Below are positions 8,701-49,641 of a stretch of DNA of 64,000 bases, in pieces. The position numbers and the translations under genes are program-made. Within the stretch, counting starts at the first letter, position 1, and every line of letters starts with the position of its first letter. Origin of the DNA: Streptomyces pluripotens (GTDB taxonomy: Bacteria > Actinomycetota > Actinomycetes > Streptomycetales > Streptomycetaceae); the NCBI RefSeq assembly GCF_000802245.2, contig NZ_CP021080.1, forward strand, positions 6,634,001 through 6,698,000, given 5' to 3'. The notes under the pieces were generated by a model. That model had not been told where the DNA came from. It worked only from the letters and a program-made list of their open reading frames with translations, and did no database searches.

Positions 8701-11700
8701 CGGCGACACCCGACTGGCCGAGCTGACCCTGGAGATCCCGCTGGTGCTGCCCGCCGAAGGCGGCCTGGCCCTGCGGGTCGGCATCGGAGAACCCGACGAC
8801 ACAGGATGCCGCAGCATCGAGGTGTACTCCCGGCCGGAGGACCCCGCACTGCCCTGGACCCGCCACGCCGCCGGCGTACTGGCCGAAGACACCGAAGAGA
8901 ATGAAGACGACACCGGTGGCCCGGACATGATGCAGTGGCCCCCGCCCGGTGCCGCAGCCGTCGCGCTGGATGAGTTCTACCCCCGGCTCGCCGAGTCCGG
9001 CCTCGGCTACGGCCCGGCCTTCCAGGGGCTGCGCGCGGCCTGGCGGCGCGGCGACGAGATCTTCGCCGAGATCGCCCTGCCCGACCCGCAGCGCGGCCAG
9101 GCCGAGGAGTTCGGCCTGCACCCGGCGCTGCTGGACGCGGCACTGCACGCCCTGGCCCTGCGCGGTGACGACGGCCTGAGATTGCCCTTCTCGTTCCGCG
9201 GGGTGCGCTGGTACACCGTGGGCGCGGCGATGCTCCGGGTCAGGCTCACCACCATCGAGGACGGCGCAGTGCGGGTGGACCTCGCCGACGACAGCGGCGC
9301 CCTGGTCGGCACCGTCGAGCGCCTGGTGCTACGCGAGCTCACCGGCGAACTGCGCCCGCCGGCGCGGCTGGACTCCTTGTACCGGCTGGAATGGACGCCC
9401 GCCCGCACCAGGCGGCACCGCGACACCGGCGCCGACGTGCTGTTCCGGGTCGAGGACACCCCAGTGGTCGAGCGCACCGCCGCTGTGTTGGAGCGGGTGC
9501 ACGGCTGGCTGACCGAGGAGGCCGAGCCGGAAGCCCGCCTGGTCCTGATCACCCGCGGTGCGGTCGCCACCACCGCCGAGGAGGTACCCGACCCGGCCGG
9601 CGCGGCCGTGTGGGGACTGATGCGCTCGGTACAGGCCGAACGGCCCGACCGGTTCGTACTGCTGGACACACCCGACCCCGGCGTCACGAACGAAGAGCTG
9701 GCCGCGGCGTTGGTCACCGGCGAAGGGCAGTTGGCGGTGCGTGCGGGGCGGGTGTTGGTGCCGCGGTTGGCGCGGGTGGCCGAGGTGCCTGGGGGCTCTC
9801 CTTGGTCGGTTGACGGCACGGTGTTGATCACGGGGGCGAGTGGGACTCTGGGGCGTTTGGTCGCGCGGCATCTGGTGGGTCGTCACGGGGTGCGTGGTCT
9901 GGTGTTGGTGTCCCGGCGCGGTGGTGATGCGCCGGGGATGGCCGAGTTGGTGGCTGAACTACGGGGGTGGGGTGCCGAGGTTGCGGTGGTGGCGTGTGAT
10001 GTGGCCGAGCGGGACGCGGTGGCTGCGTTGCTGGCCGAGCACCCGGTCACCGCGGTGGTGCACGCCGCCGGGGTCGTGGACGACGGCCTGGTCACCGGTC
10101 TCACCAAGGAGCGGTTGCGGGCGGTGCTGGCGCCGAAGGTGCTGGGCGCGCAGTGGCTTGACGAACTGACCCGCGACCGGAACCTCACCCAGTTCGTCCT
10201 GTTCTCCTCCGCCTCGGCAACCATCGGCAACGCCGGGCAGGCCGCCTACTCCGCCGCCAACGCCCACCTGGACGCGCTGGCCCGCCAACGCCGTGCTGCC
10301 GGACTGCCCGCACACGCGCTCGGCTGGGGCCTGTGGGAGCAGCGCAGTGGCATCACCGGCTCGCTGACCGAGGCCGACCTGGCCCGCATCGCCCGCAGCG
10401 GCATCGCCGCCCTGTCCACCGAGGAAGCCCTGGCGCTGCTGGACGCCGCAGTCGGGCTCGGTGAGGCGGCCGTGCTGCCGCTGCGGCTGGACACCGCCGC
10501 CCTGCACCGGCTGGACCCGCTGCCCGGGGTGTTCGCCGGTCTGGTCAGCGGCCGCAGGCGCACCCGGCAGCAGTCCGACTGGGCCGACCGGCTGCGCGCG
10601 CTGCCCGCGCCGGAGCGCCGCCGCGCCGCCCTGGACCTGGTGCGCACCCAGGCCGCTGGCGTACTGGACCTGGCCGGGACCGAACCGGTGGATGCCGAGC
10701 AGCCCTTCGCCGACCTCGGCTTCGACTCGCTGACCGCGTTGGAGCTGCGCAACCGGCTCAGCGCCGCCACCGGGCTGAAGCTGCCCACCACCCTGGTGTT
10801 CGATCACCCCACCCCCACCGCCCTGGCCGGATTCGTGCTCGCCGAGGTCGGTGATCTTCGGCCCGGACCGGAACCCACCGCCCCCGCGGCGGTGGTGACG
10901 ACGGACGAACCGATCGCCATCGTGGGCATGGCCTGCCGCTACCCCGGCGGGGTCAGCACGCCCGAGCAACTGTGGGACCTCGTCGCCGCCGGCCGGGACG
11001 GCATCTCCGCTTTCCCCGCCGACCGCGGCTGGGACCTCGATGCACTGCCGGTCGGGCTGGGCGGGTTCGTCGCCGACGCGGGCGACTTCGACCCCGGGTT
11101 CTTCGGGATCTCCCCGCGTGAGGCGCTGGCGATGGACCCGCAGCAACGGCTGCTGCTGGAGCTGTCCTGGGAAGCCTTCGAGCATGCCGGGATCGACCCG
11201 TTGGCCGTGCGCGGCAGCCGCACCGGGGTGTTCGCCGGGCTGATGTACCACGACTACGCGAGCAGGTTGGCGCAGGTACCCGAGGAACTGGCGGGCTACC
11301 TGGGCAACGGCAGCCTGGGCAGCATCGCTACCGGCCGGGTCGCTTACACCTTCGGTTTCGAGGGACCCGCGGTCACCGTGGACACGGCGTGTTCCTCCTC
11401 GCTGGTGGCTCTGCACCTGGCGGTGCAGTCGCTGCGCTCTGGTGAGTCCACCCTGGCGTTGGCCGGTGGTGTGACGATCATGTCCAGTCCCACCCCGTTC
11501 AGTGAGTTCGACCGGCAGGGCGGGTTGGCCGCCGACGGTCGGTGCAAGGCGTTCTCCGCCGATGCCGACGGCACCGGGTGGTCGGAAGGCATCGGGATGC
11601 TGGTGCTGGAGCGGCTGTCCGATGCGCAGCGCAACAACCATCCGGTGCTCGCCGTGGTGCGTGGTTCGGCGGTCAACCAGGACGGTGCGTCCAACGGTCT

Positions 11701-14700: not shown

Positions 14701-16114
14701 CCCCGAGATCCCCGCCGCGGCCTGGAACGTGCCGGGAGGTCAGCTGGTGCTGCGTGACAGCACGGTGCTCGTGCCGCGACTGTCCCACGTCCCGCTGACC
14801 AGGATCACCGACCGGGACGGCACCGCCTGGGACCCGGGCGGCCCGGTGTTGATCACCGGCGGGCTGGGCGCCCTCGGCGCGTCCCTCGCCCGGCACCTGG
14901 CCGCCGACTGCGGGGTGCGCCAACTGGTGCTCACCGGTCGGCGTGGCCCGGACACCCCAGGCGCGGTCGAGTTGGCCGCCGAGCTCGCCGAACTCGGTGC
15001 CACCGCAAGGATCGTGGCGTGTGATGTGGCCGAGCGGGACGCGGTGGCTGCGTTGCTGGCCGAGCACCCGGTCACCGCGGTGGTGCACGCCGCCGGGGTC
15101 GTGGACGACGGCCTGGTCACCGGTCTCACCGAGGAGCGGTTGCGGGCGGTGCTGGCGCCGAAGGTGCTGGGCGCACGATGGTTGGACGAGCTGACCCGTG
15201 ACCGCGAACTGACCGACTTCGTGCTGTTCTCCTCTGCCGCCGGGGTGCTCGGCGCGGCCGGGCAGGGCGCCTACTCGGCGGCCAACGCCGCACTGGACGC
15301 GCTGGCCCGCGGCCGGCGAGCCGCCGGGCTCCCGGCCGTCTCGCTGGCCTGGGGCCTGTGGGAGCAGCGCAGCGGCATCACCGGCTCGCTGGGCGAAGCC
15401 GACCTGGCTCGCATCGGCCGCGCCGGGGTGCGGCCGATGGCCACCGCTGAGGCACTTGAGCTGTTCGACCTGGCTCGTTCTGTCGACGAACCGGTGCTCG
15501 TACCGATGCGGCTGGACCGGGCGGCCGTTCCGGCCGGTGGGCCGGTCCCGGCAGTGCTGCGCGGCCTGGCCCGGGAAGTCCCCGTCCCAGCCGCCGCCAG
15601 CGCGGAGTCCGGTGCCGCGCTGGCCGCGTTGTCCGGACCGGAACGGGAAAAGGCGCTGCTTGCGCTGGTACGCGCCGAAGCGGCCGGGGTACTGGCCTAT
15701 GATTCGCCGGCCGCGATGGCAGAACACCGCACCTTCGCCGAACTCGGCGTCGACTCGCTGGCCGCGGTGGAACTGCGCAACCGGCTGTCCGCGGCCACCG
15801 GAATCCGGCTGCCTGCCGCGGTGGTGTTCGAGTACGCCACCCCCGTCGCGCTCGCCGCGCACCTGCACGAGTCCATGCCCTCCACGGACGACACGCAGCC
15901 CGCCTCGGAACTGGCCGAGCTCGACCGGCTCGAAGCGGTACTAGCCGGCACCGAACCCGGTGCCGTGGACCGGACGAAGCTGCGCATGCGGCTCACCGCG
16001 CTATTGGCCAAATACGGCGGCGAGGAGCAGAGCGGCTCCGCGCCGGAGCAGGACCTGTCGTCGGCCTCCGACGACGAACTGTTCGACCTCGTCGACGATC
16101 TCGGCGCCAGCTAG
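5765..16114 (+). CDS. Modular type I PKS, two modules: KS-AT-DH-KR-ACP twice
   Basis: 3449 residues. The GTG start is chosen because it follows a GGAGGGG ribosome site and opens an N-terminal docking coil ([19 protein letters not shown]). Module 1: KS from about 33 (Cys206, in a CSTS context), AT Ser655 (GHSVGE) with HGFH 755-758 (malonyl-type), DH His955 and Asp1124, KR Tyr1495 (VDD variant of the B-type motif), ACP Ser1655. Module 2: KS Cys1876, AT Ser2328 with HGFH 2428-2431 (malonyl-type), DH His2621 and Asp2783, KR Tyr3170, ACP Ser3331, then a C-terminal docking region from about 3370. All reductive catalytic residues are present, so each module should leave a double bond and the pair a conjugated diene. 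The two ATs are almost identical to each other and to the first AT of the next gene. The KS of module 2 lacks about 11 residues of a usual N-terminal loop. Confidence 0.96.
7103..8479 (+). repeat. AT block copy 1 (malonyl-type acyltransferase, module B1)
   Basis: 1377 bases covering the KS-AT linker and the whole AT. By eye it matches copies 2 and 3 except for a 6-bp-unit length difference in the Pro-Val tract (five units here), one GTT/GTG difference from copy 3 at the end of that tract, and C instead of G at 8072 (Arg instead of Gly). Codons such as TTG, TTT, GAT, TGT and GTT are common here and rare in flanking PKS DNA, and the coding strand is very G-rich and C-poor. Confidence 0.95.
9833..10072 (+). 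repeat. KR cofactor-loop segment, second copy (module B1)
   Basis: Copy of bases 1-240. Codons are again G/T-rich compared with the following KR half. Its downstream part overlaps a second shared patch with module B2 (9989-10149 against 15014-15174). Confidence 0.93.
11321..12109 (+). repeat. KS segment shared with 16647-17435 (modules B2 and C1)
   Basis: Collinear with 16647-17435 at a constant offset of 5326 bases, and continuous with the AT block. Long stretches are identical, interrupted by two divergent islands, after the TIMS motif and after TAPNG. A further collinear patch at the same offset lies in the KS N-terminal part (about 11054-11160 and 16380-16486). This indicates duplication followed by local conversion or divergence. 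Confidence 0.85.
12110..13498 (+). repeat. AT block copy 2 (module B2)
   Basis: 1389 bases, identical by eye to copy 1 apart from seven instead of five Pro-Val units and G instead of C at the position matching 8072. The codon anomaly stops abruptly near the conserved YAFQHRRYW end of the AT, which suggests that the block was exchanged as a unit. Confidence 0.95.
15014..15174 (+). repeat. KR patch shared with 9989-10149
   Basis: 161 bases matching the KR of module B1 with a single visible difference (AAG/GAG codon). It spans the VDD motif and neighbouring helix in module B2. Confidence 0.88.
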
Positions 16115-16133
16115 GGGCAGGGAAGGATTCCGC

Positions 16134-32084
<15,951 letters not shown>

Positions 32085-40442: not shown

Positions 40443-41675
40443 ATGACCGAAGCTCCGATGCTCGACCCGGGCCTCATCGCCCAGCTGTTGCCCTTCGACC
40501 CATTCGACCCGGCCTTCCTGGCCGACCCCTACCCGAGCTACGCACAGGTCCGCGAGAAGGGCCCGGTGACCCGGACCCCGCTGGGGCTGTGGGCGGTGAC
40601 CGGGCACGAGGCCTGTTCGGCCGTGCTGCGCGATCAGCGATTCGGATGGGGCGACGGCGCCGCCGTCGCCGACCACTTCCGCCACGGGGCCGACGGCTCG
40701 GTGGTGCGGCCGTTCATCTTCGCCGACCCGCCCGAGCACACCCGGATCCGTGCCCTGGTCAGCAAGGCGTTCGCCGCACGCCAGGTGGACCGGATGCGCG
40801 CCACTGCCGAGCGGGTCGTGCACGAGCTGATCGAGACCGCCCGCGCCGAGGCGGGCGACGGCCCCATCGACCTGATGCGCGCGGTGGCGCACCCGCTGCC
40901 CGGCCGGATGCAGAACGCGCTGCTGGACGTCCCGGCCGAGCACGCCGCCCGGTTTGACGAGTTGTCCGGCGACATCGCCCGTGGTCTGGACCCCAGCTTC
41001 CTGCTCGCTCCCGAGGAGATCGCCAAGCGGGACAGCGCCCGCGCCGAGCTGTACCACTACATCGGTGAGCTGGCCGAGCGGCGTCGAGCTGACCCGGGCA
41101 CCGACCTGATCAGCGAGTTGGTCTCGGTCGAGGAGGGCGGGGACAAGCTGACCCCGCACGAACTGGAGGTCACCTGCACGCTGCTGCTCTCGGCCGGGTA
41201 CGCCACCACGGTCAACCTGATCGGTAACGGCATGTTGGCGCTCCTGGGCCGCCCCGAACAGCGGGACTGGCTGCGTGCCGACCCGGATCGGGTGCCCGCC
41301 GCGGTCGAAGAGATGCTGCGCTTCGACCCGCCGGTGCAGATGATCTCCCGGGTCGCGGTGGCCGAGGCCGAGATCGCCGGGCACACCGTCCAGCCGGGGG
41401 AACAGGTCATGCTGATGATCGGCGCGGCCAGCCACGACCCGGCGGTCTACGACGACCCCGACGCGCTCAAGCTGGACCGGCCGGCCGGCCGCAACCTGGG
41501 CTTCGGCCTGGGCATCCACTTCTGTGTCGGCGCGCCGCTGGCCAGGCTCACCGCACAGGCCGCAGTGTCCGCCCTGACCGCGCTGGACCTGGAACTGCTG
41601 ACCGAGACGCCGGCCCGGGTACCCAACATCATCATGCGTGGCCTGGCCGAACTGCCCGTCCGGATCTCCGGCTGA
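40443..41675 (+). CDS. Cytochrome P450 with altered I-helix
   Basis: 410 residues. The ATG follows a GGGAACGG stretch. Heme loop LGFGLGIHFCVG with Cys361 as ligand; ExxR in EEMLR. In the I-helix the motif is AGYATT (251-256): the acidic residue that normally precedes the conserved Thr (AGxE/DT) is Ala254. In most P450s this acid helps relay protons during O2 activation, so its loss is noteworthy (see findings). It is 110 bases from the first P450, same strand, and is the last gene that clearly belongs to the polyketide cluster. The substrate is inferred to be the polyketide or its first oxidation product. Confidence 0.9.
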   Translation: MTEAPMLDPGLIAQLLPFDPFDPAFLADPYPSYAQVREKGPVTRTPLGLWAVTGHEACSAVLRDQRFGWGDGAAVADHFRHGADGSVVRPFIFADPPEHTRIRALVSKAFAARQVDRMRATAERVVHELIETARAEAGDGPIDLMRAVAHPLPGRMQNALLDVPAEHAARFDELSGDIARGLDPSFLLAPEEIAKRDSARAELYHYIGELAERRRADPGTDLISELVSVEEGGDKLTPHELEVTCTLLLSAGYATTVNLIGNGMLALLGRPEQRDWLRADPDRVPAAVEEMLRFDPPVQMISRVAVAEAEIAGHTVQPGEQVMLMIGAASHDPAVYDDPDALKLDRPAGRNLGFGLGIHFCVGAPLARLTAQAAVSALTALDLELLTETPARVPNIIMRGLAELPVRISG

Positions 41676-41917
41676 AGCACCCCACGCCGGGCAGATTTTG
41701 CTGTCGGCTGGGGAAATCCGCGCCAGCACGCGCGCCCGCCCCACGATATCGGTGGGCCCGTGAGGGTCGACGACACGAGGGCTTGGTCCCCGCGGTGTAC
41801 GGCACCGCGGGAGCCACGCCCGTACGAACCCGCCGCACGGCCGTCACCGACGGTGCGACGGCCCCTGACGAGCCAATCGGCCTCAGGGGCCTGGAACGGT
41901 CTGGGGCGGCCGGGGGC
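41676..41917. other. Intergenic, no gene seen
   Basis: Stretch between the second P450 and the dehydrogenase remnant. Open frames here lack coding character or recognisable motifs, and no convincing terminator hairpin was found. Confidence 0.5.
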
Positions 41918-42064
41918 CGGCATGGTGCGGTAGGGGTGGAGGTCGCTGCCGCGGACGCTGGTGCGGACGACGCGCACGACGGCGTCGGTGGGCTGCTCCA
42001 GGACCGGATCGGGTGCGTGCTCGACGCGTACGTCGCCGGCGCCGTACAGGAAGGTTGCTCGCAT
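41918..42064 (-). pseudogene. Truncated zinc-type alcohol dehydrogenase, N-terminal 49 residues only
   Basis: Reading from ATG at 42064, the first 49 residues look like the start of a medium-chain zinc alcohol dehydrogenase: MRATFLYGAGDVRVEHAPDP, then an hydrophobic strand and RGSDLHPYR, where the family normally has xCGSDLWPYR with the catalytic-zinc Cys. Here that Cys is replaced (VRGSD). Homology stops after HPYRTMP and no dehydrogenase sequence follows. It lies 28 bases downstream of the cupin gene on the same strand, a pairing I associate with Streptomyces. Probably dead; the break point lies between the polyketide and isoprenoid regions. Confidence 0.7.
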
Positions 42065-42092
42065 GGGGGGCTGCCTCTCGGACGGACCGGTC

Positions 42093-42506
42093 TCAGGCGC
42101 GAGTGCGCGGACCGGCTGCGTACTGTTCGTCCGTGACGTGTTCGGCCCACGACGTCTCGGGGGCGCCGTCGTCGGAGCCCTCCCACAGCGCCAGATGTTC
42201 CATGAAGTGGTCGGGAGCGGCACCGTGCCAGTGCTCCTCGCCCGGCGGGCAGGAAACGGTCTGGCCGGGGTGAGCCTCGAAGACGGTGCCGTCGCGCGTA
42301 CCGACCAGGGCCACTCCGGAGACCACGTGCAGGGTCTGGCCGAGGGCGTGGTGGTGCCAGGCGGTGCGGGCGCCGGGCGTGAAGCGGACGAGGACCGCAC
42401 GCATCCGCGACGGCGCGTCACCGGGATGGATCACGTCCCACCACACGTCGCCGGTGAACCACTCGGCCGGGGCCTTGCTGGTGGACTGTCTGCTGAGGAA
42501 TTCCAT
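42093..42506 (-). CDS. Cupin-domain protein
   Basis: 137 residues from ATG at 42506 (longer in-frame readings are low in coding character; a purine-rich GGAGAGG lies upstream but farther than usual). A single small cupin barrel is visible: the first motif around TAWHHHALGQTLHVVSG supplies a His cluster, the second around HPGQTVSCPPGEEHWHG supplies further His and Glu, so a metal site is likely. Such proteins are often dioxygenases, isomerases or sugar-binding regulators, and the sequence does not settle which. It was probably co-transcribed with the now truncated dehydrogenase. A link to either biosynthetic cluster is not established. Confidence 0.8.
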   Translation of the reverse strand: MEFLSRQSTSKAPAEWFTGDVWWDVIHPGDAPSRMRAVLVRFTPGARTAWHHHALGQTLHVVSGVALVGTRDGTVFEAHPGQTVSCPPGEEHWHGAAPDHFMEHLALWEGSDDGAPETSWAEHVTDEQYAAGPRTRA

Positions 42507-42730
42507 GGATGCACGCTCACACCTCTCCTCTACACACGCAAAGAGGAGAATCCTCGGCTGCACCCGTGTGCGCGGAGGCCGCCGTCGCACCGGTCCCCGG
42601 GCGCCCCGCACGGAGCTCACTGCTCCAGGTCCCCTTTCCACCGCTTCGATCCCGCGCCACCGCTCGATCGCGCGGGCCGTGCCGGCGCAGTGGCCGCAGG
42701 GTGTGGTGAGCAGGACACGACGGCAGTGGG

Positions 42731-43810
42731 TCATGCGGTCCTTGTGGTGGCCGCGTGGGCGATCTGTCGGAGGGCGGCGGTGGCGGTGGCGGGGAAGGGG
42801 GCGCGGTCGAGTGCGGTGAGGGCTTGTTGGTACCGGGTGTGGATCATGTGCTCGGTATCGGCGTGGGCGCCGGTGGAGTCGAGGATGGCGCGAATGCGAG
42901 CGGCGCCGTTCTCGTCCAGGTCTGGGGAGCCGAGCAGGGTGCGCAGGATGGTGTCCTGATGGGGGTTGGCGCGAGTGAGGGCGAGGGCGATCAGCACGGT
43001 GTGTTTGCCGTCGCGCAGGTCGTCCAGGACGGGCTTGCCGGTCTGTTCGGGGGTGCCGAACACCCCCAGGAGGTCGTCGCGGAGCTGGAACGCCTCGCCC
43101 AGGGGGAGAGCGAAGGCGGTGCAGGCGTCAAGGACCGCGGGGCCGGCTCCGGCGAGGGCTGCGCCGATGTGCAGGGGGCGTTCGATGGTGTACTTGGCGG
43201 TCTTGTAGCGGATGACCTGCAATGGGGTTTCGATGTCGCCGGTGAGTTGGCCGGTGTTCAGCAGGTCGAGGTACTGGCCGTACATCACCTCGGTACGCAT
43301 CGCATCGACGTACGGTCGGACCGCGGGCAGTTGCTCGGGGGACAGATGGGTGGACAGGAGCTCGTCGGACCAGACCAGCGCCAGGTCACCGACCAGGACG
43401 GCCGCGCTCGCGCCGAGCCGCTCGGCGGCGGTCTGGCTGCGGTGCGCGCCGTGGTGGGTGGCGAGGGCGCGGTGGACGGTGGGCCGGCCGCGGCGGGTGG
43501 CGGAGCGGTCCATGACGTCGTCGTGTATGAGGGCGAAGGCGTGGAACATCTCCATCGCGGCCGCGACCGACACAAGCCTGGTGGTCTCGCCACCGCCCGC
43601 GCCCGCGCTCCAGCCGCACGCGCACAGCAGGGGACGCAGGCGTTTGCCGCCGCGGAACAGGAAGTCGCGCAGGATGTCGATGATCTCGGGAGGCAGCTCG
43701 TCAGCGGCCGCCGTGTGGGCCTTGCGATCCAGGAAGCGGTCGAGGCAGGCGTCGACGGCCTGGCGGAAGCCGGTGAGGTCCGGTTCCGGCGCGGCCGGGG
43801 TGTGCGTCAT
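42731..43810 (-). CDS. Polyprenyl (probably geranylgeranyl) diphosphate synthase
   Basis: 359 residues. All-trans prenyltransferase fold: GGKRLRP (54-60) for substrate binding, first Asp-rich motif HDDVMD (DD97-98, D101), second motif DDLLG at 245-249 followed by [14 protein letters not shown], typical of actinobacterial enzymes. It condenses isopentenyl diphosphate with allylic diphosphates in the cytosol; a C20 product is inferred from context and resemblance, not from a decisive residue. The ATG overlaps the ispG stop (ATGA), so translation is coupled. Third gene of the dxs-ispG-synthase operon, meaning that the operon both boosts precursor supply and makes the terpene-synthase substrate. 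Confidence 0.9.
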
Positions 43811-44946
43811 GGCCCCGCCTGCTCCGTTGGCGTGGGGTCCTCTTGGGCCAAGCGGAGTGCCTCTTCGAGCAGCCGGTTGACGATCTGGGCCTCGGGGACG
43901 GTGGCGATGACCTTGCCCTTGACGAAGATCTGTCCCTTGCCGTTGCCGGAGGAGACACCGAGGTCGGCGGCGCGGGCTTCACCGGGCCCGTTGACGACGC
44001 AGCCCATGACGGCGATGCGCAGCGGGTGGGGGAAGCCGCCGAAGGCCGCTTCGACCCGGGTTGCCAGTTTGTGGATGTCGACCTGGAGGCGGCCGCAGCC
44101 GGGGCAGGAGACGATTTCCAGCTTGCGGGGCCGCAGCCCCAGGCAGGCCAGGATGTGGCAGCCCGCTTTGACCTGCTCTAAGGGGGGCGCGGACAGGGAG
44201 ACGCGGATGGTGTCGCCGATGCCTTCCGAGAGCAGGATGCCGAAGGCGACGGCGGACTTGACAGAGCCCTGAAGGGTGGGACCAGCCTCGGTGACGCCCA
44301 GGTGGAGGGGGTAGACGCAGCGGCTGGCCAGCAGCCGGTTGGCGGCCACCACGACCAGGGGGTCGTGGTGCTTGACCGCGATCTTGATATCGGAAAAGCC
44401 GTGTTCCTCGAACAGTGAGGCTTCCCACAGCGCGGATTCGACCAGGGCCTCGGCGGTGGCCGCGCCGTGCCGGGCGAGCAGTCGGGGATCGAGGGAGCCG
44501 GCGTTCACCCCGATCCGCAGTGGCACCCGCGCGTCGGCTGCCGCTTTGGCGATGTCCTCCACCCTGTCGTCGAACTTCCTGATGTTGCCGGGGTTGACGC
44601 GGACCGCGGCGCAGCCGGCGTCGATCGCCTGGAAGACGTAGCGGGGCTGGAAGTGGATGTCGGCGATGACCGGGATCGGCGAGCGGGCGGTGATGGCAGG
44701 TAGTGCGGCGGCATCGTCAGCAGTGGGTACCGCGACGCGGATGATGTCGCAGCCGGCTGCGGTGACCTCGGCGATCTGCTGGAGGGTGGCGTCCACGTCG
44801 GCGGTGTTGGTGGTGGTCATAGTCTGCACGCTCACCGGTGCGTCCCCGCCCACCAGGACGTTCCCGATGCGCAGCTGGCGGGAGCGGCGGCGTGGTTCTG
44901 GCGGCGGGGGCGGCATGGCGGGCGGTTGCGGGTCGATGGTGGCCAT
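43807..44946 (-). CDS. ispG: 4-hydroxy-3-methylbut-2-enyl diphosphate synthase (IspG/GcpE)
   Basis: 379 residues. Converts methylerythritol cyclodiphosphate to HMBPP in the MEP pathway with a [4Fe-4S] cluster. Cluster ligands are visible in CPGCGR and in GCVVNGPGE; the N-terminal TIM barrel has the [19 protein letters not shown] stretch and ADIHFQPRY. Length is as expected for the bacterial two-domain form. The start at 44946 shares one base with the dxs stop (TGATG), with GGAG upstream. It is likely a cluster-borne second copy that relieves a bottleneck, since streptomycetes normally carry another ispG elsewhere (known biology, not visible here). Confidence 0.96.
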
Positions 44947-46802
44947 CAAAGGCTCCCTGTGTCGGGGGTGGAGCTGGAGCATGGTGGGCGTGCGGACGCG
45001 GCGGCGAGGGCTCGGCGGGCGGAGCGGGCGATGCCGTCGGCGTCCAGGCCGGCCCGGGTCAGCAGGGCGCTGCGGGGTCCGTGGGGGAGGAACGTGTGGG
45101 GCAGTCCGAGGCTGGTCACTGGGGTGGCCACTCCGGCCTCCTGGCAGGCCTGGGCCAGAGCCGTGCCGAAGCCGCTGGTGCGGATGTTGTCCTCGATGCT
45201 GACGGCGACACGGTGACGGGCGACCAGCGTGGGCAGCGTGTGGCGGACGGGCAGGATCCAGCCAGGGTCGGCCACCGTTACCCCCAGCCCCTGCCCTTCC
45301 AGCACGGCGACGGCCTCGAGGGCCGCGGTGGCGAGCGGACCCGCGGGGACGAGTAGGACGTCCAGGGGGCGCCGCGGGCTGCGGTGCAGGATGTCCAGGC
45401 CGTCCACCTGCGCCACCGCATCGACGGCCGCTCCGGTCGCCGACTTGGGGATGCGCAATACCGTGGGGCCGTTGCGCACCGCGACGGCTTCGCGCAGCAG
45501 GGACCTGAGCCGGTAGGCGTCGCGAGGGGCCGCGATCCGGAGGCCTGGCACCGTGGCCAGGACGCCCAGATCCCACATGCCGTGGTGGCTGGGTCCGTCC
45601 GGCCCCGTGATACCGGCCCGGTCCAGGACGAAGGTGACGGGCAGCCGGTGCAGGCCGACGTCCATCAGGACCTGGTCGAACGCCCGGTTCACGAACGTCG
45701 CGTAGAGCGCGACCACCGGGTGCAGGCCGCCCATGGCCAGTCCCGCGGCACTGGTCACCGCGTGCTGTTCGGCGATCCCGACGTCGAAGACCCGCCGGGG
45801 ATACCGCTGTGCCATGGCCCACAGCCCGGTCGGGCGCAGCATCGCCGCGGTGACGGCGACCAGGTCCTCACGTTCGGCCGCCAGTTCCACCAGGACCTGT
45901 TCGAACGCGTCGGTCCAGGACAGCGCCACGGCGGTATCGGGTCGGCCGGTTGTGGCGTTCACGGGGCCCACCGCGTGCAGGCAGTCCGCCTCGTCCTGCT
46001 CGGCCGGGCGGTAGCCCTTGCCCTTGACCGTGACCACGTGCACCACCACCGGCCGTTCCAGGGACCGGGCCCGGCGCAGCGCGCCCTCCAGGGCGGCTGT
46101 GTCGTGTCCGTTGAGGGGGCCGAGGTAGGCGAAGCCGAGGTCCGTGAACAGGTTCCGGCCGGTGTTCGTCCCGCCGTCGTTCCGGGGGAGCGTGGCCAGG
46201 GAGGTAGCCAGTGCTCCGGTGGTGGGGGCGTAGGAGCGGCCGTTGTCGTTGAGGACCACGATCACCGGACGGCCAGGCGCACCGCCGATGTTGTTCAGCG
46301 CCTCCCACGCCATTCCTCCGGTCATCGCCCCGTCCCCGATGACAGCCACCACCCGCCGGTCCGTGTGGCCGGTCAGCTCGTGTGCCTTGGCTAGGCCGTC
46401 CGCGTAGGACAGTGCAGTGGAGGCATGGGAGTTCTCCACCAGGTCGTGCACCGACTCGTCACGGGACGGATAGCCGGACAGTCCGCCCTCCTGCCGCAGC
46501 GATCCGAAGTCGGCTGCCCGCCCCGTCAGCAGTTTGTGGACGTACGACTGGTGCCCGATATCGAAGACGAGACTGTCACGCGGTGAGTCGAAGACCCGGT
46601 GCAGTGCGAGGGTGAGTTCCACCACTCCCAGATTCGGTCCCAGATGGCCTCCGGTGGCACAGACCCTGTCGACCAGGAACGCGCGGATCTCGTCAGCGAG
46701 TTCCTTGAGCTCCCCGTACGACAGGGAACGCAACGCCTCGGGGCAGCCGTGCGCAGCCAGCAGCGGGAAGTGCTCGTGCCGGTCGATGTGGGCGCCCGTC
46801 AC
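44946..46802 (-). CDS. dxs: 1-deoxy-D-xylulose-5-phosphate synthase
   Basis: 618 residues from GTG at 46802; no strong ribosome site is visible, so the start is less certain than the frame. Thiamine diphosphate enzyme joining pyruvate and glyceraldehyde 3-phosphate, the first committed MEP step. Seen: [12 protein letters not shown] with the substrate His, the ThDP/Mg motif [31 protein letters not shown] and the [12 protein letters not shown] catalytic Glu region of the transketolase-like half. The C-terminal tail is Ser/Pro-rich and overlaps the next gene by one base. First gene of a three-gene isoprenoid operon, divergent from the putative terpene synthase. Confidence 0.96.
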
Positions 46803-47715: not shown

Positions 47716-49626
47716 ATGGAAGACGAACCGAACACGGCTCAACCCCGGCGGGTTCCACTGGACGACCCCAACATCATGGACAAGGGGTTGAACTCCCAGG
47801 TCATCCCGTTTCCGGAGGTATCCAGTCGGCCGCCGGTCTCGTACGCGATCAACGAACCCGATCACCAGCACTACCGAATGTCCTGCTACGCGGTCGCGGA
47901 AACCCTGGTGCCCGGCCGCGAGTACACCATCTCCCCTCCGCGGGGCGGCACCCTGTTCCACAGCATGGCTGACGGCTGCCAGGGCGGCTGCGACGGTGCT
48001 CCGTGGTATCTGGGCTTCGATCCTGGTTTCGCGGCGCTCGCCGGCGTGCGGATTCTGGAGCCGGACTCGTGCGCGCCCGCCTTGGCGCCTGACACCCAGC
48101 AGGACCTGATCCGCGAAGCCCTGGTCGCCTCCGCGGGGTCTCGCTGTGCCCAGACCCTGCACTTCACCACCGCAAGCCTCGCCGCCCGTCAGGAACCCCC
48201 CGGATGCCGGACGGTCATGGCGCTGATGAGCAACTGGACGGCCTGGGTGTCGTGCTCGATCTACGACGCGCTGGTCGACTGGTCGGCGGACGAGGGGCCC
48301 GCGACCGTGGCCGCCGACACCCTGGGCACCAGCAAAATCCGTTTCGTGGACGCTGATTTGCGGCACACTGGCCGCCCGCACCCGTCCGACTTCCTGCACA
48401 AGGGCACCGGCTGGGAAGACGAGGATGACGCAGCCTGGGTCGAAGCTTGCCGCAGGTACGGTATGCGCGGCATCTACCAACGGCCGACCGTAGGTCTCGG
48501 TGTTCTCGCCGTAGACGCCGGCGTGTACGGCCGTACCCCGATGGCCTGGTCAACGATGCTTCTGGACAGTCAGTTCTACTACGACTACAACTTCCTCGCC
48601 GAGAACTCGCCCAGCCTGGGCTGGTGGCGCCACGTCCAAAGCTACGCACGAAAGGCCGTCGCCGCTTCCGACACCTACCTCGGCGCCTTCGCGGCGGGAT
48701 GCAGCTTCAGCTACGGCGCCCTCTACGTCAAACAACGCCGTGAACAGGAAGCCCGTCGCCACACCCTGGTGCGCCGGGGCGGAGTCGTATGGGAGGACCC
48801 ACAACTGTGGTCCTCCTACCTGGTCGTCGACTCCGGGGCCGAACAGTGGGCGGTCGGCACCGGTGGCTGTACTGACGACCTGATGAGCCCGGGCGTCGCC
48901 CGCGTGGTCAACGATGTCATCGACCTCGGCTACGACTGGGCCTCCGGCGACATGTGCAACAGCATCTTGACCCTGACGGGCGGAAAGACCGGTCGTGAGG
49001 ATCTGACCCTCGCTTACCGCAAACTCGCCAGTGTCCTCAACCGCACGGGAACCCTCCGAAGTGACACCATGGGCGGGATCGCGATTGCGTCCACCTACGC
49101 CTGGCAGATTGCCGACACCCGGCACCGGGGCATTTCCTGCGCACTGGTCAGCGACGACCCCGGGATCGGTCCCACTACCACCATGGCCTCCTGGCACCAG
49201 GCGGTGCTCCTCGGTGACATCGGCCATGAGACCACCAGCCACGACCTGGTGCCCGGCACCCTGCACAACCACACGGTCACCCTCACCCAGAGGACGTGGG
49301 ACGCCATCGGCAAGCACCCCGCCGTCGGCACCCTCCTCTACTACGGTCACTGCTGGCCGCTCCAACAGCGCGCCCAGCGAAGAGTCCCCAGCACCCAGGA
49401 GGTCTACGCGGTGGAGCAGAGACTCCGGGTAGCCCTGCTCGAAGCCGTGATGGAACTTGACCGCGCGGACTACGTCGAAGCCATCTGGTGCTGGACCCTC
49501 GAAAGCTTCTGTGCCACCGACCTGATGTGGCACGCCATGATCGGCAGCACCGCCGTCGCCGCCGACCGTCACATCGGATCCGACCGGCTCAGCGACGACC
49601 ACACGATGCAGCAGTGGACCGGCTGA
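47716..49626 (+). CDS. Unrecognised 636-residue protein, possible non-canonical class I-like terpene synthase
   Basis: ATG at 47716 is chosen because GGTGGAG lies eight bases upstream; an in-frame start at 47542 has no ribosome site. I cannot place it in a family with certainty. Seen: soluble, no signal peptide or membrane segment; acidic boxes EDDAAWVE near 236-243 and TDDLMS near 386-391; then NDVIDLGYDWASGDMCNS from 399. The last resembles the NSE/DTE metal motif (N/D)Dxx(S/T/G)xxxE of class I terpene synthases, with Asp at both later positions, followed by helix-rich sequence with many Trp/His. No DxDD class II motif was found. It faces away from dxs-ispG-prenyl synthase, so a role as cyclase or prenyl-diphosphate-using enzyme is inferred. 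It is about twice the length of typical bacterial class I cyclases. Other metal-dependent lyases remain possible. Confidence 0.6.
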   Translation: MEDEPNTAQPRRVPLDDPNIMDKGLNSQVIPFPEVSSRPPVSYAINEPDHQHYRMSCYAVAETLVPGREYTISPPRGGTLFHSMADGCQGGCDGAPWYLGFDPGFAALAGVRILEPDSCAPALAPDTQQDLIREALVASAGSRCAQTLHFTTASLAARQEPPGCRTVMALMSNWTAWVSCSIYDALVDWSADEGPATVAADTLGTSKIRFVDADLRHTGRPHPSDFLHKGTGWEDEDDAAWVEACRRYGMRGIYQRPTVGLGVLAVDAGVYGRTPMAWSTMLLDSQFYYDYNFLAENSPSLGWWRHVQSYARKAVAASDTYLGAFAAGCSFSYGALYVKQRREQEARRHTLVRRGGVVWEDPQLWSSYLVVDSGAEQWAVGTGGCTDDLMSPGVARVVNDVIDLGYDWASGDMCNSILTLTGGKTGREDLTLAYRKLASVLNRTGTLRSDTMGGIAIASTYAWQIADTRHRGISCALVSDDPGIGPTTTMASWHQAVLLGDIGHETTSHDLVPGTLHNHTVTLTQRTWDAIGKHPAVGTLLYYGHCWPLQQRAQRRVPSTQEVYAVEQRLRVALLEAVMELDRADYVEAIWCWTLESFCATDLMWHAMIGSTAVAADRHIGSDRLSDDHTMQQWTG

Positions 49627-49641
49627 ACCCTGAACCGGTTT

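Follow-up and report, generated by a model that had tools for sequence, protein, structure and literature searches.

A 636-aa protein encoded at 47716–49626 (+; ATG at 47716, stop at 49626) in a 64-kb window of the Streptomyces pluripotens genome, the window being the whole stretch of DNA that was analysed, is proposed here with moderate confidence to be the enzyme that uses the prenyl diphosphate in a module of four genes (dxs, ispG, a GGPP synthase gene and its own gene), and to represent a rare, unannotated and highly divergent class I terpene-synthase-like clade. The protein, hereafter X, is terpene-synthase-like and falls into no known family. As a putative class I-like prenyl-diphosphate enzyme it is most likely a cyclase; the analysis establishes the module, the conserved residues and a weak resemblance to terpene synthases, while the fold, Mg2+ binding, substrate and cyclisation are inferred. 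The first-pass annotation had described the same 636-residue reading frame, which was confirmed, and the start is backed by a homologue in Streptomyces sp. CC53, whose ATG aligns with that of X. Its suggestion of a non-canonical diterpene cyclase holds in part: the lack of any family match, the linkage to a GGPP module, the alignment of the NDxxDxxxD triad of X on the NSE motif of terpene synthases and a relative with all three class I hallmarks speak for it, while one of the metal motifs it had named, EDDAAWVE, found no support.

Terpene pathways have been mined largely via family models, and Pfam and NCBIfam both miss X. Since GGPP genes adjoin it and weak terpene synthase traces are present in X and its relatives, X may represent a branch of terpene-ring-forming enzymes that has been overlooked. 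If X or its relative in another genome of the same genus (G229) turns over GGPP, it would define a new terpene cyclase branch with an unusual metal site. Were this true, unannotated proteins divergent from dxs-ispG-GGPPS modules would provide a search rule, and the family would show to what extent class I metal motifs may decay in an enzyme that stays active.

Linkage of X to a GGPP supply module

X is divergent from a prenyl-supply operon, as noted in the first-pass annotation and confirmed here by profile matches to all three genes on the (-) strand. These encode a GGPP/polyprenyl synthase with a DDVMD first motif (42731–43810; PF00348, 189 bits; 76% identical in CC53), IspG (GcpE; 43807–44946, 379 aa from the chosen ATG; PF04551, 445 bits; 87% identical) and Dxs (44946–46802; TIGR00204, 545 bits; 75% identical). 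Comparison of the 64-kb window with the 17.7-kb CC53 locus (blastn, E 1e-10) yielded two shared stretches, 42729–46769 (82%) and 47834–49629 (80%), and the only DNA found common to both is GGPPS-ispG-dxs and the divergent X. Because the shared DNA has this content, X is the best candidate for the consumer of the prenyl diphosphate, and the simplest reading is that it uses the product of the dxs-ispG-GGPPS module. Between the window and CC53, pN/pS of X (0.33) lies within the range of its module partners (dxs, 0.39; GGPPS, 0.47; ispG, 0.22).

The same shared DNA argues against the distinctly improbable reading that X is unconnected to prenyl diphosphates and is an unrelated enzyme or regulator travelling with the operon. 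Such a protein would suit the surroundings of two distant relatives introduced below: the one in genome G096 neighbours an aromatic ammonia-lyase, a phenolic acid decarboxylase and two EF-hand proteins, the one in G229 (L012:5867-12784) faces, in convergent orientation, conservon-like genes (for a sensor kinase, a roadblock/LC7 protein, a GTPase and a weak P450 match just below cut-off), and no prenyl genes were recognised beside either. On the other hand, terpene synthases in Streptomyces genomes often stand alone.

In CC53, a UbiA-family gene (L001:58-1059 (-); PF01040, 55 bits) lies just beyond the GGPP synthase gene, and the contig begins just beyond it. Its first motif reads NQAKGGTED in place of NDxxDxxxD, which we take to be the type found in UbiA-type cyclases, and the protein is possibly such a cyclase. 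From this gene arises an alternative that we consider unlikely, in which X uses GGPP or its product without being a cyclase, either by transferring geranylgeranyl to an acceptor or as a tailoring enzyme, and the neighbouring UbiA-family protein of CC53 cyclises; that X has no intact DDxxD is consistent with it. Yet the window's genome keeps the module and gave no match to the CC53 UbiA protein (E 0.001; run without a control, this search shows little), with two other UbiA proteins present there by PF01040 search, and the NSE/RY register of the X family likewise argues against this alternative.

The claim that the window has no other cyclase gene holds for the genes scanned, that is, those left of about 53.4 kb apart from a 5374-aa PKS frame at 15960–32084. 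Left of the module lie type I PKS genes, the last one with a thioesterase, together with an FAD monooxygenase gene and two P450 genes, a set that looks like a cluster separate from the X module. An epimerase-like gene, CtaG and a Dyp peroxidase gene lie to the right of X. A promoter scan gave no promoter-like site and a single terminator-like site, a yield not above chance expectation. A cupin gene (42093–42734 (-)), which at 161 bits passes the NCBIfam cut-off of 140 for (R)-mandelonitrile lyase, lies immediately downstream of the GGPP synthase gene and outside the DNA common to the window and CC53, and frames at 41632–42421 (-) resemble by eye the broken start of a zinc-type alcohol dehydrogenase. 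Against the model for family 2 encapsulin cargo polyprenyl transferases, the GGPP synthase (42731–43810) reaches 268 bits (cut-off 450).

Relatives of X and their occurrence

The word "orphan" used in the first-pass annotation was too strong, as three full-length relatives exist, although it was right in that no catalogued family matches. Closest is the Streptomyces sp. CC53 protein, 76% identical across its full length and the single locus with an X homologue in a search of genome contigs; a CC53-type protein at the same contig coordinates in G1081 probably comes from the same genome. Two distant relatives were found, one of 580 aa (23% identity) in G096, which belongs to another genus of the family, and one of 659 aa as aligned (22% identity) in G229, of the same genus as the window's genome. 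The best Pfam match of X, DUF6093, reached 15.3 bits under a cut-off of 27.9 and is not credible; another member gave a single DUF match (E 0.021), and NCBIfam returned nothing for any of the four. X matches neither the profile of bacterial class I terpene synthases (PF19086) nor that of UbiA (PF01040). PDB sequences likewise gave nothing for X, the family profile or the G229 protein; matches of the G096 protein to two designer PPR chains (E 1e-6 and 0.002, no stretch passing alone) and four weak ones look like noise and were set aside. Structures predicted with AlphaFold from X and CC53 had a pLDDT of 30.8 at full length and 28.2 for residues 85–500, too poor for fold comparison.

The family is rare in the overlapping genome samples. 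Counting the window's own genome each time, it occurred in 3 of 392 genomes at the genus level, 3 of 394 at the family level, 4 of 391 at the order level (two as a fragment or weak match) and 3 of 396 at the phylum level (two below 21 bits, treated as chance), and further in 1 of 70 genomes in the genus of G096 and 2 of 305 in that of G229. Relatives may have been missed in these counts, since the samples overlap and mostly three to four candidates were scored per genome (up to 18 in the genus of G096). Searches of plasmids and of viral contigs returned no relatives, and no title or abstract start among the matches listed from the open-licence literature describes the family. In G096, an apparently broken second family copy lies about 4 kb from the intact one (L013:4576-5409 (-) and 9144-10886 (+)). 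In G506 the family is represented only by an 80-aa frame covering the final ~74 profile positions (L014 near 10109-10330 (-), also L007), probably a relic, with a transposase-like frame nearby by eye.

Conserved and eroded metal-site motifs

The motif NDVIDLGYD (residues 399–407; 48910–48936 (+)) is present where the first-pass annotation had placed it, and N399, D400, D403 and D407 are invariant in all four members. It had been described as a variant of NSE/DTE, with which its position and spacing agree; Asp stands at both +4 and +8 in 4/4 members. By itself NDxxDxxxD is weak evidence because shuffles of X yield it (90 of 20000 for the exact pattern, 2795 of 20000 for a looser class I triad pattern), and its value lies in this invariance. 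Of the two acidic boxes named upstream, both present, TDDLMS (residues 386–391 (+)) contains D387-D388, an invariant DD upstream of the triad (48874–48879 (+)). EDDAAWVE (residues 236–243; 48421–48444 (+)) is not conserved: CC53 has EDHADTAWTD at the aligned place, and nothing comparable is found in G096 or G229. A class II cyclase reading (DxDD) was also rejected, as DEDD at 235–238 occurs in X and in none of the other three proteins.

Further candidate elements emerged from the family alignment and motif comparison. VDAGV (residues 266–270; 48511–48525 (+)) lies opposite DDYPD of G229 and ADHRD of G096, and X and CC53 retain at this place a single Asp, D267, the sole remnant of DDxxD. A possible second acidic patch is LDSQFYYDYN (residues 283–292; 48562–48591 (+)), part of a conserved LDxxFYx[DE]YN block with invariant columns L283, D284, F287, Y288, Y291 and N292. 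The pyrophosphate-sensor Arg of class I terpene synthases lies ~46 residues before the triad, and R353 (48772–48774 (+)), 46 residues before N399, is a candidate for its place; an Arg is found at −46 in CC53 as well and at −45 in G096, with none in G229. Finally, W463...R469 (49102–49122 (+)) falls on the W...RY end of terpene synthases in hhalign, its Arg being family-invariant and its Tyr missing in X.

DDxxD or DDxxxD is absent from X, CC53 and G096 and appears only in G229, as DDYPD at −130, and an RY pair is absent from X and CC53 and stands at +80 in G096 and G229. The joint presence of DDxxD (−130), triad and RY (+80) in G229 arose in 3 of 20000 shuffled G229 sequences and in none of 265 background frames; triad plus RY, as in G096, was reproduced by 172 of 20000 shuffles. 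All three hallmarks occur in 31 of 32 control terpene synthase domains; as NSE-like and DDxxD-like patterns served to pick this set, two of the three are present by design. In the controls, DDxxD/E or DDxxxD/E lies 135–150 residues before the triad and RY 83–99 after it (31/32 domains), and the hallmark counts are to be taken as indicative, since we chose the DDxxD and RY windows with knowledge of the family sequences, and they extend below these ranges.

X shares with bacterial class I terpene synthases (PF19086) the position and spacing of the triad (N, +4, +8) and an Arg aligned with the RY Arg, and its G229 relative has DDxxD and RY at near-canonical distances. It differs from them in having Asp for Ser and Glu in the triad, eroded DDxxD and RY motifs, a longer N-terminus and 238 residues from triad to end. 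We read this pattern as the mark of a divergent class I-like lineage whose X branch has lost part of the canonical site. On such a reading, the dxs-ispG-GGPPS module would raise GGPP, and N399, D403 and D407, on one helix face, would hold Mg2+ and the GGPP diphosphate. The first-motif remnant (D267, perhaps with D284/D290) and conserved Arg residues would complete the site, and loss of diphosphate would give an allylic cation that is then cyclised or quenched.

Comparison with terpene synthase, squalene/phytoene synthase and UbiA profiles

The profile-profile comparison proposed in the first-pass annotation was carried out with hhalign against 32 canonical terpene synthase domains from 43 loci (L050-L089, L016, L021 and L029; 33 domains were kept by a pattern needing an NSE-like and a DDxxD-like motif, and one extra frame was dropped). 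It placed the triad on NSE, whereas plain HMM searches between the X family and terpene synthases were not significant. The top alignment of the four-member family (397–474 to 236–335) scored 23.7; it pairs N399 with column 238, the Asn of NSE, and R469 with column 330, the Arg of RY, and a second alignment (153–204 to 67–118) followed the same order. None of 200 shuffles reached 23.7 and 4 of another 400 did; of 250 shuffles, none reached it while also covering the NSE column. With G229 as master the score was 27.8, again with the triad on NSE (0 of 500 shuffles). As a positive control, squalene/phytoene synthases scored 37.3 against terpene synthases; the isoprenyl synthase control consisted of two sequences only. 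Among the 265 background frames, which are pieces of open frames from all six frames, antisense ones too, with the broken G096 copy among them, two scored at least 24.6 singly and one covered the NSE column at a score of at least 20.

Sub-profiles were less uniform. X plus CC53 aligned out of register with terpene synthases at 25.3 (1 of 120 shuffles) and gave two in-register alignments when cut to residues 1–500; X and CC53 each alone had their best alignment out of register. G096 plus G229 gave 18.2 with terpene synthases and 25.5 with squalene/phytoene synthases (20 columns; 0 of 120 shuffles). Because the sub-profiles disagree and this contrary pairing also beat its shuffles, the shuffle nulls must be regarded as lenient. 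The place of the first motif differs as well, near 184 by hhalign and near 267 by the family alignment. A terpene synthase HMM run over 1269 sequences ranked CC53 5th (5.1 bits), X 20th (2.9 bits) and G096 635th, with G229 unlisted, and in the reverse direction the family HMM failed to single out terpene synthases, the best of which scored 1.0 bit, less than several shuffles. Squalene/phytoene synthases (PF00494) share class I prenyl diphosphate chemistry and the short 25.5 match with G096 plus G229, but that match is N-terminal, away from the triad, and the four-member profile with X as master gave no match (15.7, inside the null of 60 shuffles).

The UbiA superfamily (PF01040) enters the comparison through the triad, a reading that the first-pass annotation did not contain. 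NDxxDxxxD, present exactly in X, is the consensus of the first UbiA motif, and a review likens the UbiA site to the sites of FPP synthase and group I cyclases (PMC7839719). UbiA prenyltransferases and UbiA-type terpene cyclases would also share their substrate class with X if X uses GGPP. It is conceivable, if improbable, that X adopts a new fold or is distantly related to UbiA, in either case as a soluble protein, and that its NDxxDxxxD site resembles the metal sites of UbiA or isoprenyl synthases. Alignment to 24 UbiA proteins does set the triad on NxxxDxxxD, scoring 17.7 with X as master (inside the null of 60 shuffles) and 20.8 with G229 as master (1 of 120 shuffles), but the match spans 17–21 columns, that is, the motif itself, and both profiles score higher with terpene synthases. 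With no membrane-like segment and no UbiA profile match, X may work like terpene synthases or UbiA and need not belong to either. A bolder form of our preferred class I-like reading, which we put forward only tentatively and rate as rather doubtful, is a soluble cyclase clade that ionises GGPP via a UbiA-type NDxxDxxxD instead of NSE and without DDxxD, a branch that would link class I and UbiA sequence logic and is missed by current family models. Hydrophobicity separates X from the membrane-spanning UbiA proteins: X looks soluble because it has no membrane-like segment (maximum KD19 of 1.07 and no long hydrophobic stretch, compared with 2.04 for the CC53 UbiA protein), and KD19 windows above 1.6 number 0 in X, its CC53 homologue and the G229 protein, 2 in the G096 protein and 13 in the CC53 UbiA protein.
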